Part shown: in pieces, positions 25,064 to 31,503 of the stretch
Position numbering within the stretch: position 1 is the first letter of the stretch
Layout: each line of letters opens with the position of its first letter
Origin: Candidatus Gastranaerophilales bacterium
Lineage (GTDB): Bacteria > Cyanobacteriota > Vampirovibrionia > Gastranaerophilales > Gastranaerophilaceae
Reading direction: 5' to 3'
Assembly: GCA_944323285.1 (NCBI GenBank)
Contig: CALURV010000024.1
Location: 102,893 to 166,892 of the forward strand
Length of the DNA stretch: 64,000 bases
The notes under the pieces: model-generated
Seen by the model: the letters and a program-made list of their open reading frames with translations, nothing else
Databases searched by the model: none
What the model was told of the DNA's origin: nothing
Position numbers and translations under genes: made by a program

Positions 25064-26206
25064 ATGGAGACAGAAATAAAATCAATTCAAAAAAAAATTG
25101 AAATATCTGATTTACCAGAAGAAATTCCTGATTTTTCTTCTTCATATGAACCTAAAGATTCATTAATTAAAAAATGGATTATTAACTGGATTTTATCTGC
25201 TGTTTCCAAGAATAAAATAAAAGAAAATGACATAATGCCAAACAAAGCAGACTTGTCTAAATATCTAGGTGTAAGTGTTGGTACAGTACAAAATGCAATT
25301 AGATATGTTGAAGATGAGGGCTTATTAAAATCTAAACAAAAACTTGGAACTATGATTTCTAACGTAACTAATCCTTCAGTTAACTTGGTAAAATCTACGT
25401 CAAGACGTGATAAAGCAATAATTGCAATAAAAAAATATATAATTCAAAAAGACATTCAATTAAATAAAAATATTCCCTCAACTCGTAAAATGTCAGAAAT
25501 ACTTGGAATTTCTCAAAATACAACAAGACTTGCTTATGAATTTTTATGTAGAGAAGGTATTTTAGAATCAAAGCAGTCAAGAGGTAATGATTCAAACTGG
25601 TTATTAATAAAATATCCACAACTTGTTGCTCTTGAAAGCAGAACTAATGAAATTTTTAAAGCAGATACCTTAGTAGACAAACTTACTATTGAATTAAAAA
25701 ATTATTTTGCAAATAGATATTCTATAGGTGATAAAATCCCTTCTCATGAGTTCTTAGCAACTGAATTAAAAGTTAGTATAAAAACGGTTCATGATTGTAT
25801 TTCCAAATTATCAAATGAAGGAATTTTAATATCAAGAAGAGGCCGCTATGGCACAATTTTAGCTAAAAACCCATTAGAAACAGCTTATGAACCATTAAAA
25901 GAAAATTCTATTTTTTCAAAGGCTGAGGATGCTGCGTTTTATAGTTATCAAAAAGTTGAATCGCAAATTATTAATTTAATTTCAAAAGAATATAAAGTTG
26001 GAGATAAACTTCCATCAATGAAAGATTTATCAGAAAAATTTGATGTAAGCACAAACACTATTAGAAAATCATTGAACTCTCTTGCAAGTCAAGGATTTCT
26101 TACATTTTCAAGGGGTCGTTTTGGCGGAACATTTATTGTTGAAGCTCCTGTTAACTACGAAAAACAAACATACCAATGGTTATCTATTAATCCTAATTAT
26201 ATATAA
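25064..26206 (+). CDS. DNA-binding protein with four tandem GntR-type winged helices
   Basis: A 380-residue protein that seems to consist only of four GntR-like winged-helix domains: about residues 33-97 (DIMPNKADLSKYLGVSVGTV), 110-175 (NIPSTRKMSEILGISQNTTR), 200-265 (KIPSHEFLATELKVSIKTVH) and 300-362 (KLPSMKDLSEKFDVSTNTIR). Each ends with a wing such as SKQKLGTMI or SRRGRYGTIL. No effector-binding domain (FCD, UTRA or aminotransferase) follows. Ordinary GntR proteins have one such domain. The start is clear: CGGAGG seven bases upstream, and TGTTATAAT at 25001-25009 may be the promoter. Targets are unknown; the small gene and vWA genes downstream are candidates by position. Confidence 0.8.
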   Translation: METEIKSIQKKIEISDLPEEIPDFSSSYEPKDSLIKKWIINWILSAVSKNKIKENDIMPNKADLSKYLGVSVGTVQNAIRYVEDEGLLKSKQKLGTMISNVTNPSVNLVKSTSRRDKAIIAIKKYIIQKDIQLNKNIPSTRKMSEILGISQNTTRLAYEFLCREGILESKQSRGNDSNWLLIKYPQLVALESRTNEIFKADTLVDKLTIELKNYFANRYSIGDKIPSHEFLATELKVSIKTVHDCISKLSNEGILISRRGRYGTILAKNPLETAYEPLKENSIFSKAEDAAFYSYQKVESQIINLISKEYKVGDKLPSMKDLSEKFDVSTNTIRKSLNSLASQGFLTFSRGRFGGTFIVEAPVNYEKQTYQWLSINPNYI

Positions 26207-26398: not shown

Positions 26399-26566
26399 AT
26401 GTCTAATACTGCAGCAGATTTAAAACAAAATTCATCTTCCATTACTTCAAAATTTACAGAAGAATTTGAGAAATATCTCAAAATGCAATCATTAAAAACA
26501 ACATTCAATGGTTGTGATATTGAAACATTTAGTTGGTATAAAAAAATGTTAGGTATTGGATGTTAG
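26399..26566 (+). CDS. Small 55-residue protein of unknown function
   Basis: This short gene has a strong ribosome-binding site (CGGAGGG, five bases from the ATG) and is closed by a near-perfect hairpin, so it is likely real and well expressed. The protein is hydrophilic and Ser/Thr-rich at the N-terminus (MSNTAADLKQNSSSITSKF), has a probable helix EEFEKYLKMQ, and ends with cysteine in KKMLGIGC. A second cysteine is at residue 39. There is no signal peptide and no recognised family. It lies between the four-GntR regulator and three secreted vWA genes. A small regulator, a peptide precursor or a structural peptide are all possible; I cannot choose among them. Confidence 0.68.
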   Translation: MSNTAADLKQNSSSITSKFTEEFEKYLKMQSLKTTFNGCDIETFSWYKKMLGIGC

Positions 26567-26586: not shown

Positions 26587-26610
26587 AAAGAGGCTCAATT
26601 GAGCCTCTTT
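26587..26610 (+). terminator. Hairpin after the 55-residue gene
   Basis: Ten-base perfect stem AAAGAGGCTC / GAGCCTCTTT with loop AATT. The downstream T run is only three bases, so it may act as a terminator or attenuator, or as an mRNA-stabilising hairpin. It separates the small gene from the vWA genes. Confidence 0.65.
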
Positions 26611-26654: not shown

Positions 26655-27407
26655 ATGCTGAAGTCTTTCATATTTTCCTGTTTATTAATTATATTTTATT
26701 TTATTTTTTTAACTCCAGCAATCGCTGAAGAAGAAACTCTTATTTTATTTGACGCAAGTACATCAATGATGTATGAAATTAATAATGAACCCAAGTATAT
26801 TATTGTAATTAACTCAATAAAGGAGGTTTTATCAAAGTCTAATTCTTCAATGAAAATAGGAATGCGAATAATTGGACTTTCATTAAATCAAAATTCCATT
26901 AGTTATGTCTTATCTCCCAAAAAAATGTGTCAAGCAACGCAATTAATAAATCCTATAAAACTAAATAATGTTGATAATATTATTAAAAATTTAGAAAATA
27001 TATTCCCTCTAGGTTTATCGCCAATTACCTACAGTCTTAAAACAGCAATTCAATATGACTTTTCGGATTCAGCGAACCCAAAGCATATTATACTTATAAC
27101 TGATGGAGAAGAAGGTTGCGGAGAAAATCCTTGTAAGTATATAAAAGAAATAACATCTTACAGAAAAGATATCAAAATCGATGTTATTATAATAGGTGAA
27201 ATTGAAGATGAAGCCCAAACTCAACTTAATTGTTTATCACAGCATACAAATGGTAAAATTATAGAAATAGATAATGCGCAAGAATTAAATTCAGCTTTTT
27301 ATTCAATTGTTTATAACTATGGACATAGTTACAATTTTACTAATAATATTCAACAAAAAAATAATATTATTAAATATAAAAGTTATATGTTCGAAACTTA
27401 TAAATAG
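26655..27407 (+). CDS. Secreted von Willebrand factor A (vWA) domain protein 1
   Basis: About 250 residues: a signal peptide (start MLKSFIFSCLLIIF, cleavage after PAIA) and one vWA domain. The metal-ion-dependent adhesion site is FDASTS (D-x-S-x-S); the later MIDAS elements are GLSPITYSL and LITDGEEGCGENPC. Four cysteines sit at positions shared with the two following proteins (KKMCQATQL, GCGENPC, LNCLSQ), so disulfides are likely. The tail NNIIKYKSYMFE recurs in protein 2. The start is uncertain: ATG 26655 gives the cleanest signal peptide, but 26616 and 26649 are in frame and none has a good ribosome-binding site. It is first of three tandem paralogues, probably periplasmic or surface-bound. 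Confidence 0.75.
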   Translation: MLKSFIFSCLLIIFYFIFLTPAIAEEETLILFDASTSMMYEINNEPKYIIVINSIKEVLSKSNSSMKIGMRIIGLSLNQNSISYVLSPKKMCQATQLINPIKLNNVDNIIKNLENIFPLGLSPITYSLKTAIQYDFSDSANPKHIILITDGEEGCGENPCKYIKEITSYRKDIKIDVIIIGEIEDEAQTQLNCLSQHTNGKIIEIDNAQELNSAFYSIVYNYGHSYNFTNNIQQKNNIIKYKSYMFETYK

Positions 27408-27462
27408 TGACTATTGTCAAATTTTTTGATAAACTTTTAATAACCCAATAAAGGATTATAAA

Positions 27463-28395
27463 TTGTTTAACAAATTTTTTTTATTTTTACTTTTATTTCT
27501 ATCATTTTATATTATACAATTAAAGGCTTCATCATATGATAATTATGATGGTAAATATACTTATTCAAAGTATACAGGAGAAAATGCAAATATTAATAAT
27601 TTGAATTTAAATAAAGATGAAGAAATTTTAATAATATTAGATTTTTCTTCATCTATGCAAAAAAAATTAAATGACCAACCTAGAATTAATTATGCTGTAA
27701 ATGCATTAAGAAATGTTATTGATAAACTACCAGATGATACAAAAATCGGGTTAAGAATATTTGGTCCTGATGAAAAATCATTAACAATGTATCGTTCAGG
27801 CACAGGAATTAACACAAATAGAGATTGTAGAGCATCTAAACTTGAAGTTCCTATTGCTTCTAATAATAAATCAAACATTAAAAACAGACTTTCAGGTTAT
27901 TATAGACCGTTTGGAGAATCACCTATCGGTTATTCATTAAGACAAGCAATAAATAACGATTTTTTATTAACTGAATCTCTTAAGCACATTGTATTAATAA
28001 CTGACGGAAAAGAAGGATGTGGAGATGATCCTTGCAGTTACATTAGAGAACTAATGACTACTCGTGATGATATTAAAATTGACGTAATAGGTATATCTAC
28101 AGATGAAAATGCATATTCTCAGCTTTCTTGTTTAGCAAGCACAACTAAAGGTAAATATTTTATTGTAAGAAACATAGATGACCTTTATCTCTCAATTGAA
28201 ACGGCGGTAACTTCAGTTTCTCCACTTGATATACAAGAAAAAATTTCAAATTATTCAAAACAAAATATAAATACTTCTCAATATCCTAATTTTAATAATA
28301 ATCAAAATATTATGCAAAAAGACAGTATAGATAACAAATCAAAAAACAAAAATATTATAAAATATTCAAATTATGCTTTTGAATTTGATATATAA
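27463..28395 (+). CDS. Secreted vWA domain protein 2
   Basis: A 310-residue paralogue of the preceding gene. It starts with TTG at 27463, supported by AAAGGA eight bases upstream. The signal peptide (FFLFLLLFLSFYII) is followed by about 30 linker residues and a vWA domain with MIDAS motif ILDFSSSMQ, GESPIGYSLRQA and LITDGKEGCGDDPC. The four cysteines line up with its neighbours (RDCRASKL, GCGDDPC, LSCLAS). A Gln/Asn/Ser-rich spacer then leads to a tail NIIKYSNYAFEFDI, very similar to that of protein 1. The family probably binds protein ligands through a metal ion; the ligand is unknown. Confidence 0.78.
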   Translation: MFNKFFLFLLLFLSFYIIQLKASSYDNYDGKYTYSKYTGENANINNLNLNKDEEILIILDFSSSMQKKLNDQPRINYAVNALRNVIDKLPDDTKIGLRIFGPDEKSLTMYRSGTGINTNRDCRASKLEVPIASNNKSNIKNRLSGYYRPFGESPIGYSLRQAINNDFLLTESLKHIVLITDGKEGCGDDPCSYIRELMTTRDDIKIDVIGISTDENAYSQLSCLASTTKGKYFIVRNIDDLYLSIETAVTSVSPLDIQEKISNYSKQNINTSQYPNFNNNQNIMQKDSIDNKSKNKNIIKYSNYAFEFDI

Positions 28396-28457
28396 AATCT
28401 CTTAAAGGATAATGACAGTGAATGTATTTTTTGATAGTATAATACAAAGGGTGGATA

Positions 28458-29207
28458 ATGAATAAAAATACATTTATATATACATTTGTAATTATATTTC
28501 TGTTTTGTAATATATGTTCTGCTGAACCTAATTTTACATATTCGACGCCAAATAATTATAAGTTTAAAACTGGTGAAAATTTAAAAAATAATGCAGGAGA
28601 AAAAATTCTTTTTATCGTTGATTTTTCGAACAGCATGAATGAAAGACTTGGTAATAAAACAAAAATAGACATTGCATTATCAACAATGAAAGAAATTTTA
28701 CAAATGATTCCACCACAAACATATGTTGGAATGAGAGTATATGGCCATAAAACAGGATTTACACCCAAACAAAGCTGTACAGCATCACAGCTTGTTTCTC
28801 CGATACAACAAAATAATGCAATCAACATCTATTCAAGGCTCAGCTCTATCAATGCAGTTGGCTGGACACCTATTACATATTCATTAAAGCAAGCTGCTTT
28901 CTTTGACTTTGCTGATAGAACATCAAAAAAAAGAATAATATTAATAAGTGATGGTGGTGAGAATTGTGATGAAAGTCCTTGTGATTTTATTATTGAACTT
29001 ATGAAAACTAGAGATGATATTAGTATAGATGTAATAGCACTTGCTATAGGTGATCAAGATGCAAATAATCAATTAAAATGCGTAGCTTTAGTTACATCAG
29101 GGAAATTCTACAATGCTAATACAGCAGCAGAATTAAAAAATAGTTTACAGGATTCACTTAATTTACAAAAAGAAGTTCAAGGTTTAATTATTCAAAAAGA
29201 AGAATAG
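28458..29207 (+). CDS. Secreted vWA domain protein 3
   Basis: A 249-residue third paralogue with a good ribosome-binding site (AAGGGTGG). The signal peptide is MNKNTFIYTFVIIFLF, with cleavage near CSA. The vWA domain keeps all MIDAS parts: IVDFSNSMN, GWTPITYSLKQA and LISDGGENCDESPC. The shared cysteines appear in QSCTASQL, NCDESPC and LKCVAL. Unlike proteins 1 and 2 it lacks the NIIKY tail and ends shortly after the domain. It lies nine bases before a polytopic membrane protein gene, so the cluster may assemble at the envelope. Confidence 0.78.
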   Translation: MNKNTFIYTFVIIFLFCNICSAEPNFTYSTPNNYKFKTGENLKNNAGEKILFIVDFSNSMNERLGNKTKIDIALSTMKEILQMIPPQTYVGMRVYGHKTGFTPKQSCTASQLVSPIQQNNAINIYSRLSSINAVGWTPITYSLKQAAFFDFADRTSKKRIILISDGGENCDESPCDFIIELMKTRDDISIDVIALAIGDQDANNQLKCVALVTSGKFYNANTAAELKNSLQDSLNLQKEVQGLIIQKEE

Positions 29208-29216
29208 TGAGTATTT

Positions 29217-30806
29217 ATGATAAATAAGTTAAAAAATAACATTATACTTTATATTAATATTTTTATAATTTTATTATTATTTATATTATTAATTAAAATA
29301 CAAGAATTTTCTGTTCTAAACTTGCATGATTTGCAAATGCCTTTTAACTTCTTAAAAATAAAATCAGCAGGAAGACTTCCAGGAGATTTTATTGCATATT
29401 TTATAAATAACTTTATTCCTGCATCTCTCAATATTCATCCTAATGATGCAAGAAAATCTGTATCTGCAGTATTAATCGCTATACCTTTTATTCTTACTTC
29501 AATTGCTTTAACAAATGCTTTCTTTTTAAATGATAATAAAAAAATTTTTTTACTTAAAAGATTTGAATGTATTTTTATTCTGCCTTTTTCTTTCTTTATA
29601 TTGAAGCTTCCCATTTGTTATATATTTTACAATGTTAATTATCCTTACATTTTTTCAATAATTGATCAACATATAAATTATACAGAATATTTACTTGGAA
29701 TTCTTCCTTTTTTTATCTTTTTATCAATTTTATTTAAGTTATATTTTGATAATATCAAACTAAGCAAAATACAGAAAATTTTTTATTCATTTATATTTTT
29801 TATAGTCCCATTTTGGAACGAATTTTTTCTATTAAGTGGAATTATTATACTAATTTTTATGTATATTTTTTTTCAAGAAAGAACAAAGAATGTTTTTAAT
29901 AATAATTTATTTTTATACATTTCTTTTATTATTGGATTCTGTTCATTCTTTATATTCTCTGATTATTTATCAGGTAATACAATCGCAACATATGATTATA
30001 ATTTTATAGTTTTTCTAAAAAAGATTCCGCCTAACATATATATATTTACTAAAAATTTTGTTATTCTAATGATATTACAAAAATGGTATTTTTATGTATT
30101 ATTATTTATATTTTCATTTCTAGCTATAAAACAAGATAAAGCAAATTACAAAATTTTAATATTTATTTATATAGTAATAATATCTTCAATGATTACAATA
30201 TATTCAACTATTTTTATGATCGATATTTATTATTCAATTAGATTCTTATTTTTTAACTCACATTATAGTATTATTTTTTCTTGTATATTAGTATATACTA
30301 TATTAATTTTACTAGGTATTATATCAGATAATAAAAATAAAAAAATTTTCTTTATTACATTTACTATAATTAATATTTTATTTTCAATATTTTCAATAAT
30401 TAATTATAATTCTTTTATAAAATATATAAAACAAATTAAAGTTTATTCATACAACATCGAAAAAATTTATATAAAATCAATATTAAATGATGAAATACCA
30501 AAATTTCCAATTGAATATGCACGAATTCCAACTACTCTTTTCTTTCCATATATGAATTTTGATGATAATGAAGCAAAAAACTATATAGGAAAAGTGTATG
30601 ATTATGAAAATTTTTATAAATGTTTTTTAACAGACTACTATGAATTAAATAATGAGAAAGGGTATATGTTTATCGATTGTGAAACTGAAAAAGGTAGTAA
30701 TTCTATTTGTCTTGAAACTGATGAAGATGATTATATATTATATGGCAAATATCCATTTACAAATTTAAAAAATATTTATATCGAAGGAATAAAAAGTGAT
30801 AAATAA
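29217..30806 (+). CDS. Polytopic membrane protein, possibly GT-C-type glycosyltransferase
   Basis: A 529-residue protein with about ten to eleven hydrophobic segments up to residue 400 and a soluble C-terminal tail of about 120 residues. The region after the first helix (LHDLQMPFNFLKIKSAGRLPGD) carries acidic and arginine residues in a periplasmic loop, as in GT-C-fold glycosyltransferases, and FIVPFWNEFFLLSG resembles the DUF6056 family of large membrane proteins. I could not verify either. It starts nine bases after vWA protein 3 and overlaps ispD by 11 bases, so it is in the same transcript. A role in surface glycan assembly or as partner of the vWA proteins is inference. Confidence 0.6.
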   Translation: MINKLKNNIILYINIFIILLLFILLIKIQEFSVLNLHDLQMPFNFLKIKSAGRLPGDFIAYFINNFIPASLNIHPNDARKSVSAVLIAIPFILTSIALTNAFFLNDNKKIFLLKRFECIFILPFSFFILKLPICYIFYNVNYPYIFSIIDQHINYTEYLLGILPFFIFLSILFKLYFDNIKLSKIQKIFYSFIFFIVPFWNEFFLLSGIIILIFMYIFFQERTKNVFNNNLFLYISFIIGFCSFFIFSDYLSGNTIATYDYNFIVFLKKIPPNIYIFTKNFVILMILQKWYFYVLLFIFSFLAIKQDKANYKILIFIYIVIISSMITIYSTIFMIDIYYSIRFLFFNSHYSIIFSCILVYTILILLGIISDNKNKKIFFITFTIINILFSIFSIINYNSFIKYIKQIKVYSYNIEKIYIKSILNDEIPKFPIEYARIPTTLFFPYMNFDDNEAKNYIGKVYDYENFYKCFLTDYYELNNEKGYMFIDCETEKGSNSICLETDEDDYILYGKYPFTNLKNIYIEGIKSDK

Positions 30807-31503
30807 TTATGCAATAATTCTTGCATCAGGAAGTGGAGAAAGAGCAGGATTAAATATTCCAAAACAATTTGCAGTTATAGAAGAAAAAACTATACTAGAG
30901 CATACAATTGAAGTATTTGAAAAAAATAACCTAATTAATGGCATAATTTTAGTTTCAAATCCACTATATATTGATAAAGTTAAAGATATACTTTTAAAAA
31001 ATAATTATTCGAAAGTCTTAAAAGTACTTCCAGGAGGAAAGACCAGACAACAAAGTTCTTATATAGGTATTTCTGCAATTAAAGATTTTAATTCAAATGT
31101 TTTAATACACGATGCTGTAAGACCATTTATCAATGATAAAATAATTTCCGAATGTATTTATGCGCTTAATGAATATAAAGCCGTTAATGTAGCAATAGAG
31201 TCATCTGATACAATAATTGAAATTGACAATAATAATATCATCAAAAATACATTAAATAGAAAATTTTTAAGAAGATGTCAAACTCCTCAATGTTTTAAAC
31301 TTGATATTATAAAAAGAGCACATGAGCTTGCAATAAAAGATAATCTTATTGAAAATACTGATGATTGCAGCTTAGTTTTAAAATATAATCTGGCAGATAT
31401 TTTTGTAATAAGTGGCAGTAATAACAACATTAAAATTACATATCCTATTGACTTAGAAATAGCAAATCTAATATATAAGGAACAAAAAAAAGAGAGTACA
31501 TAA
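30796..31503 (+). CDS. ispD: 2-C-methyl-D-erythritol 4-phosphate cytidylyltransferase (IspD) or related TarI-type enzyme
   Basis: A 235-residue CTP-dependent cytidylyltransferase. IspD makes CDP-methylerythritol in the MEP isoprenoid pathway. Motifs are the CTP-binding loop ILASGSGERAG, IPKQF, GGKTRQQSS, LIHDAVRPF, the RRCQTPQCFK segment, ENTDDCSLV and the C-terminal NIKITYPIDLEIA. Length fits IspD (about 230). The GTG start at 30796 has GAAGGA seven bases upstream and overlaps the preceding gene by 11 bases. TarI (ribitol-5-phosphate cytidylyltransferase) is a close relative and, with envelope-type neighbours, cannot be excluded. Confidence 0.8.
   Translation: MINNYAIILASGSGERAGLNIPKQFAVIEEKTILEHTIEVFEKNNLINGIILVSNPLYIDKVKDILLKNNYSKVLKVLPGGKTRQQSSYIGISAIKDFNSNVLIHDAVRPFINDKIISECIYALNEYKAVNVAIESSDTIIEIDNNNIIKNTLNRKFLRRCQTPQCFKLDIIKRAHELAIKDNLIENTDDCSLVLKYNLADIFVISGSNNNIKITYPIDLEIANLIYKEQKKEST

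Follow-up and report, generated by a model that had tools for sequence, protein, structure and literature searches.

Among described bacterial proteins with a von Willebrand factor A (vWA) domain, the closest counterparts of those treated here are Bd0875 and Bd1483 of Bdellovibrio, exported proteins with a metal ion-dependent adhesion site (MIDAS) and cysteines predicted to pair; the parts of the account cited here describe the MIDAS as required for function in adhesins of this type, and report that both carry a lipobox and that their N- and C-termini form a small beta domain (PMC11003981). In Vampirovibrio chlorellavorus, a member of the same wider bacterial group as the organism studied here, von Willebrand proteins have been proposed to serve in attachment, as stated in the cited parts of PMC4451040. 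The present analysis concerns a tandem of three genes for secreted vWA proteins, numbered vWA1, vWA2 and vWA3 from 5' to 3', in a stretch of 64,000 nucleotides (the window) from a Candidatus Gastranaerophilales genome of 1.86 Mb in 36 contigs. Two of the three proteins end in a conserved, aromatic C-terminal peptide, the tail, and the possible partner of this tail is the main subject of the analysis. The features are as follows.

26655..27407, + strand: vWA1, secreted vWA/MIDAS protein of 250 amino acids (aa), with four cysteines, a linker and a C-terminal tail
27363..27404, + strand: tail of vWA1, NIIKYKSYMFETYK, at its C-terminal end
27463..28395, + strand: vWA2, secreted vWA/MIDAS protein of 310 aa, with four cysteines, a long linker and a C-terminal tail; TTG start as called
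28351..28392, + strand: tail of vWA2, NIIKYSNYAFEFDI, at its C-terminal end
28458..29207, + strand: vWA3, secreted vWA/MIDAS protein of 249 aa, with four cysteines and no aromatic tail; conserved, family-wide

A preliminary description of this DNA had read the genes as three secreted vWA paralogues in tandem, and this was confirmed. All three products exceed the curated cut-off of 23.8 bits for PF00092 in Pfam (31.6, 38.5 and 32.0 bits for vWA1, vWA2 and vWA3), and each has an N-terminal hydrophobic signal segment. vWA2 is 43% and vWA3 37% identical to vWA1, and the source genome holds only these three family members at E ≤ 10. For comparison, 65 rows were aligned: 16 vWA3 sequences and 49 tailed sequences of the vWA1/2 type, namely 47 complete proteins from a scan of 80 relative loci and the two window copies. 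All 65 rows retain the MIDAS motif DxSxS, the later aspartate and the four cysteines. The full MIDAS and four aligned cysteines claimed at the outset thus stand, with one correction: the MIDAS threonine is a serine in vWA1 and vWA2, and a threonine in vWA3 (30 Thr and 19 Ser among the 49 tailed homologues). As judged from sequence, vWA1 and vWA2 would be exported, disulphide-stabilised vWA/MIDAS binding proteins, and a surface adhesion role for the set is plausible in view of the MIDAS and the fast evolution described below.

Unlike Bd0875 and Bd1483, vWA1 and vWA2 show no lipobox by eye, and carry a long disordered linker and a short tail. BatA and BatB share the vWA fold, but the best NCBIfam scores of the trio (22.5 versus 380 for BatA, 18.9 versus 350 for BatB) are far below the cut-offs, no MoxR-type gene was seen beside the trio, and no membrane segment occurs besides the N-terminal one. 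The fold is also common to the vWA domain of LapA (9no5) and to the pilus-tip protein Mfa5 (6tnj), although their identity to the trio is low, at 16–20%. Searches of solved structures by sequence gave no relative of vWA2 (E ≤ 0.01) or of the vWA3 profile (E ≤ 0.001). Fold searches with Foldseek and VIA-align returned generic vWA folds, the first Foldseek match being BatB (3ibs), with Mfa5 at Z 18.2 and a root mean square deviation of 2.5 over 177 residues. The vWA fold is too widespread to indicate function, and the lack of better fold matches carries no functional information. The trio is composed of ordinary parts, to which is added, in vWA1 and vWA2, a real, conserved tail.

The tail lies at the exact C-terminus and follows the consensus I-x-Y-K-N-Y-x-F-E-F-x-x. 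A fixed regular expression at the C-terminal end matched 48 of the 49 homologues of vWA1 and vWA2 in the genus (genus and family denote groups g1 and f1 of the relative set), the sole exception being locus L111, which ends in DDGVSYKNFLIPSN. The same expression matched none of the 16 vWA3 sequences and 7 of 983 other open reading frames (ORFs) of 200 aa or more from the same loci. The tail initially reported as a common ending, NIIKY-x2-Y-x-FE, of vWA1 and vWA2 and as absent from vWA3 is conserved among the relatives. Within the last 14 residues of the 49 rows, position -10 is Y in 47 and position -7 is Y or F in 47, while position -4 is E in 38 and Q in 7, and position -3 is F in 34 and T in 12. 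The linker between the fourth cysteine and the tail ranges from 39 to 91 residues and is rich in N, K, P, T and Q. Conserved across species, the tail has the look of a recognition element.

In a tree of the domains of the 65 rows, the vWA1 clade (29 rows), the vWA2 group (20) and the vWA3 clade (16) received support of 97, 82 and 100, respectively, in the Shimodaira–Hasegawa-like approximate likelihood ratio test (SH-aLRT), and the tail is retained in both deep clades, 29 + 20 rows. Identity to the window copies at the genus loci is 69–93% for vWA3 and mostly 32–48% for vWA1 and vWA2; the closest named relative in the scan, L094, a Candidatus Gastranaerophilales metagenome-assembled genome (MAG), has a vWA3 that is 93% identical. 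Since the tail is kept and the vWA1/2 heads are variable, head and tail are under different constraint. vWA3 was found in 139 of 146 family genomes, with single homologues in the order. Most genus genomes have three vWA matches, some of the third matches being another type of vWA, neither vWA1 nor vWA2. Outside the genus, none of the family matches listed has the tail; they end near model position 223–251 of 255, except for one that is a read-through with four stops. By these comparisons vWA3 is an old, slowly evolving, family-wide gene and vWA1/2 a fast-evolving, genus-restricted pair, which probably arose in one genus beside the tail-less vWA3. Loci L132 and L141 belong to one MAG (CASDXV01), yet carry vWA3 genes of two genus types, which suggests that this MAG is a mixed bin.

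Tailed vWA proteins are not confined to the trio. Further secreted vWA proteins with four cysteines were examined in the family at 18 loci (23 proteins): 10 in the same genus (two of them as L092/L093), L284, which was sampled at a contig end, six in other genera among the matches listed, and L085. Their tails, such as ...QQYEFVKD, ...GYKFIRF and ...NYKFVNYND, are short and aromatic: among their final ten residues, 22 of the 23 proteins carry Y.[FY] and the other F.F, against 81 of 1139 background ORFs; the contrast is if anything understated, because this background contained some vWA proteins. At 16 of the 18 loci the vWA gene adjoins a gene whose product has a CxxC-CxxxCxC motif, a single transmembrane (TM) segment, a linker and a TonB_C domain. 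A 7-TM protein is encoded at these 16 loci as well, and stretches that extend far enough also hold genes for a secreted protein and a second TM/TonB-like protein. The two loci without the module gene are L284, at a contig border, and L085/L286, which spans a whole contig of 13.9 kb. In the source genome the module lies apart from the window.

Contig C17, L238:8590-11687, between TrkH and AroA: three-gene module encoding a membrane vWA protein, a 7-TM protein and a Zn-ribbon/TonB_C protein

Among the products of the module, the membrane-anchored protein of 222 aa resembles vWA proteins weakly (E 0.006, below the cut-off), and the 7-TM protein has 556 aa. The Zn-ribbon/TM/TonB_C protein (243 aa; L238:8590-9321, minus strand) matches TonB_2 (PF13103) with 32.6 bits against a cut-off of 22 (E 8.7e-8), and PF03544 with 24.0 bits, just below the cut-off of 24.6. 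In longer versions of the module (L227, L230 and L093) two more proteins are encoded, another TonB-like one and a secreted one with a Gly zipper. A by-eye likeness of the start of the 7-TM protein to FHA was discarded, as the L093, L238 and L227 versions gave no FHA match in Pfam at E ≤ 0.5.

A relative of the 7-TM protein occurs in 37 of the 41 genus genomes. The four genomes without the module (G008, G032, G061 and G062), in which TrkH and AroA are adjacent or separated by one unrelated gene (L270–L273), have vWA3 and lack vWA1 and vWA2. Among the other 37, tailed copies are present in 33, vWA3 only in G009 and G022, and no vWA match in G001 and G031. Because the four module-less genomes form one clade (support 99), module and vWA1/2 were lost jointly, once. 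Physical linkage ties the other vWAs strongly to the module; the case for vWA1/2 is built on this one joint loss and on the likeness of tail type.

The best overall explanation, to which we assign a probability of about 0.4, is that vWA1 and vWA2 dock through the tail on an envelope complex, with a TonB_C domain as the candidate receptor. Each protein would consist of a head (the vWA domain), a flexible tether (the linker) and a hook (the aromatic C-terminal peptide), and the hook would dock in trans on a periplasmic domain of the complex, to which it would contribute a beta strand, so that a variable MIDAS head would be held by a constant anchor. A variable head on a flexible tether that ends in a short, constant C-terminal peptide is the anatomy of a docked binding protein. 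The MIDAS head itself would bind a surface or envelope ligand. That the tail serves as a docking hook for an envelope partner is probable; the identification of this partner with the TonB_C protein of the module is tentative and held to be less likely than not. The latter was taken as the most likely receptor because TonB C-terminal domains bind short peptides and because the other tailed vWAs regularly have a TonB_C protein encoded beside them. In solved complexes of TonB with the TonB box, a short peptide binds by beta-augmentation, that is, by strand addition, as given in the cited parts of PMC6699858. The proposed mode is similar, in that a short peptide on a flexible segment would add a strand to the TonB_C domain of the Zn-ribbon/TM/linker protein. 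The tail differs from a TonB box, however, in being C-terminal and aromatic and in belonging to a soluble vWA protein rather than to an outer-membrane barrel; moreover, no ExbB or ExbD family was matched among the module proteins scanned.

A broader form of the proposal is doubtful at present: a new envelope system of the Gastranaerophilales, in which the Zn-ribbon/TonB_C protein, the 7-TM protein and the membrane vWA would grip exported MIDAS proteins by their hooks, with fast-changing heads that could be swapped and hook types peculiar to each lineage (IxYKNYxFEF, YEFVKD, YKFIxF). No account of this trio or module was found among the papers listed on vWA proteins or adhesins of Gastranaerophilales/Melainabacteria, on MIDAS, on TonB/zinc-ribbon/FHA or on TonB-box structures, and the cited parts of the Vampirovibrio paper (PMC4451040) mention no tail, trio or module.

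Several observations weigh against docking on the module. The co-loss happened once, on a single branch, and provides one independent pair; the Fisher value for co-occurrence (1.8e-4) ignores kinship and was not taken as decisive, since the four module-less genomes are one clade. G009 and G022 keep the module, yet have no vWA1/2. The trio is located apart from the module both in the window genome and in its genus. In one further analysis, two rows of alignment A4 were omitted. In a wider vWA tree, for which one in three of the 49 tailed rows was kept together with both window rows (18 rows), the module-linked vWAs, vWA1/2 and vWA3 form separate clades (support 98, 99 and 99), and the tail motif of vWA1/2 differs from that of the module-linked proteins. 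In the more distant genome of L166, the contiguity of a GntR-type regulator (GntRx4, see below), vWA3 and the whole module speaks for a link; the vWA beside that module, however, is a vWA3-type protein without the aromatic tail. The tailed vWA of L085/L286 has no module on its contig. Classic TonB boxes are located near the N-terminus and are not aromatic. Finally, the step from linkage to binding is one that we infer.

The strongest of the other explanations, although an unlikely one, treats the tail as a sorting or export signal: after Sec export, an outer-membrane or surface device would pass on or anchor the protein. The position of the tail at the exact C-terminus after a variable linker, together with the N-terminal hydrophobic signal segment of vWA1 and vWA2, agrees with such a role. 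The search for the motif in other proteins points the other way. The exact DNA pattern of the motif occurs at only two places in the source genome, the ends of vWA1 and vWA2; with 0–3 mismatches there were 18 matches, versus 14 for a reversed control pattern. A profile of 37 tails found only vWA1 and vWA2 in that genome below E 0.2 (1.5e-4 and 2.8e-4), the next match (E 0.25) lying inside a 514-aa frame. In the 41 genus genomes, where both L094-type vWAs served as positive controls and weaker matches were checked only in part, the 11 places checked besides vWA1/2, including the strongest, were all internal, 7–318 residues from the end; a recurrent match, KYKNYLLET, lies inside a polytopic protein, about 127–130 residues from its end. 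Among the matches checked, a general C-terminal sorting signal on unrelated secreted proteins is thereby ruled out. Of the recognition signal suggested in the preliminary description, the conserved recognition element survives and general use on other proteins does not. To serve a single pair of proteins, a dedicated partner is more probable than a sorting device.

Still less likely is an intramolecular role, in which the tail would pack on or regulate its own vWA domain. In AlphaFold2 models of vWA2 (65 sequences) and vWA1 (63 sequences), the vWA domains are predicted with a predicted local distance difference test (pLDDT) score above 90 and the linkers are disordered (below 50). The tail, at about 71 in vWA2 and 66 in vWA1, scores higher than the linker before it, and in some bacterial MIDAS adhesins segments from both termini make up a small beta domain, according to the cited parts of PMC11003981. 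Assignment by DSSP, however, gives the modelled tail neither strand nor helix in either protein and no strand with its own domain, and the variable linker length also speaks against such packing; a loose packing may still occur.

It is improbable that the tail binds vWA3, the tail-less, conserved member then acting as receptor in one complex of three. The genes are in tandem, vWA3 evolves slowly, and it is present in every genus locus found with a tailed copy that fully covers the vWA3 gene. It is nevertheless equally conserved in genera and clades without a tailed copy, and hence does not seem to be kept for the tails.

Downstream of the trio, two further genes were considered.

29217..30806, + strand: polytopic protein of 529 aa with about 10 hydrophobic segments; judged to be outside the system
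30796..31503, + strand: IspD; not part of the system

A polytopic product encoded nine bases after vWA3 had been described correctly, and this short gap had made it appear a dedicated membrane partner of the vWA set, a role now highly improbable: no homologue was found at any of the 80 relative loci with vWA3 or in 40 further stretches, many from the same genomes, and at six loci (L094, L096, L097, L100, L101 and L132) ispD lies within 8 bases of the end of vWA3 or overlaps it. The neighbourhoods in relatives thus show no association, and a conserved operon with this gene as membrane partner is ruled out. Homologues occur in 16 of 147 relatives, all of the same genus, at other genomic places and with 28–34% identity, and a paralogue in the source genome (G000:C26:17548-18954, L002) is joined to tetratricopeptide repeats; the family is scattered within one genus. 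In view of its absence from the relative loci, the gene was probably gained between vWA3 and ispD in the lineage of the window.

Upstream of the trio are the following.

25064-26206, + strand: GntRx4 regulator, four tandem GntR-type winged helices; no effector domain by Pfam
26399-26566, + strand: 55-aa ORF, MSNTAADLKQ...FNGCDIETFSWYKKMLGIGC, with a GGAGGG-type ribosome site; conservation above the vWA genes
26587-26610: predicted hairpin, after the 55-aa ORF

GntRx4 is also found near vWA3 at seven loci of other genera. The 55-aa ORF, which has no Pfam match, is present at 42 of 43 loci with GntRx4 and a vWA. Across the class it occurs in 189 of 289 genomes, almost all belonging to the same family. 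A hairpin after this ORF was predicted at nearly all of the 43 loci (no shuffled control), and the hairpin of the window was not reported by a consensus terminator scan. As the predicted hairpin precedes vWA1, the vWA genes seem to form a unit of their own, and a single operon with the upstream regulators is disfavoured. At six loci of other genera (L139, L142, L148, L153, L156 and L163) a protein of 239–250 aa is encoded between GntRx4 and the 55-aa ORF; the L142 copy has no Pfam match.

Should the proposed docking of vWA1 and vWA2 prove wrong, a receptor would still be needed for a C-terminal peptide so strongly conserved on a fast-evolving pair. If it is right, TonB-type domains would have a role beyond nutrient uptake, holding soluble, adhesin-like proteins by means of a C-terminal peptide, and the system would be a first concrete one for surface binding in this relative of the cyanobacteria, a lineage common in the gut. 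Secreted vWA proteins of vague use would then become a question of binding between one peptide and one domain.

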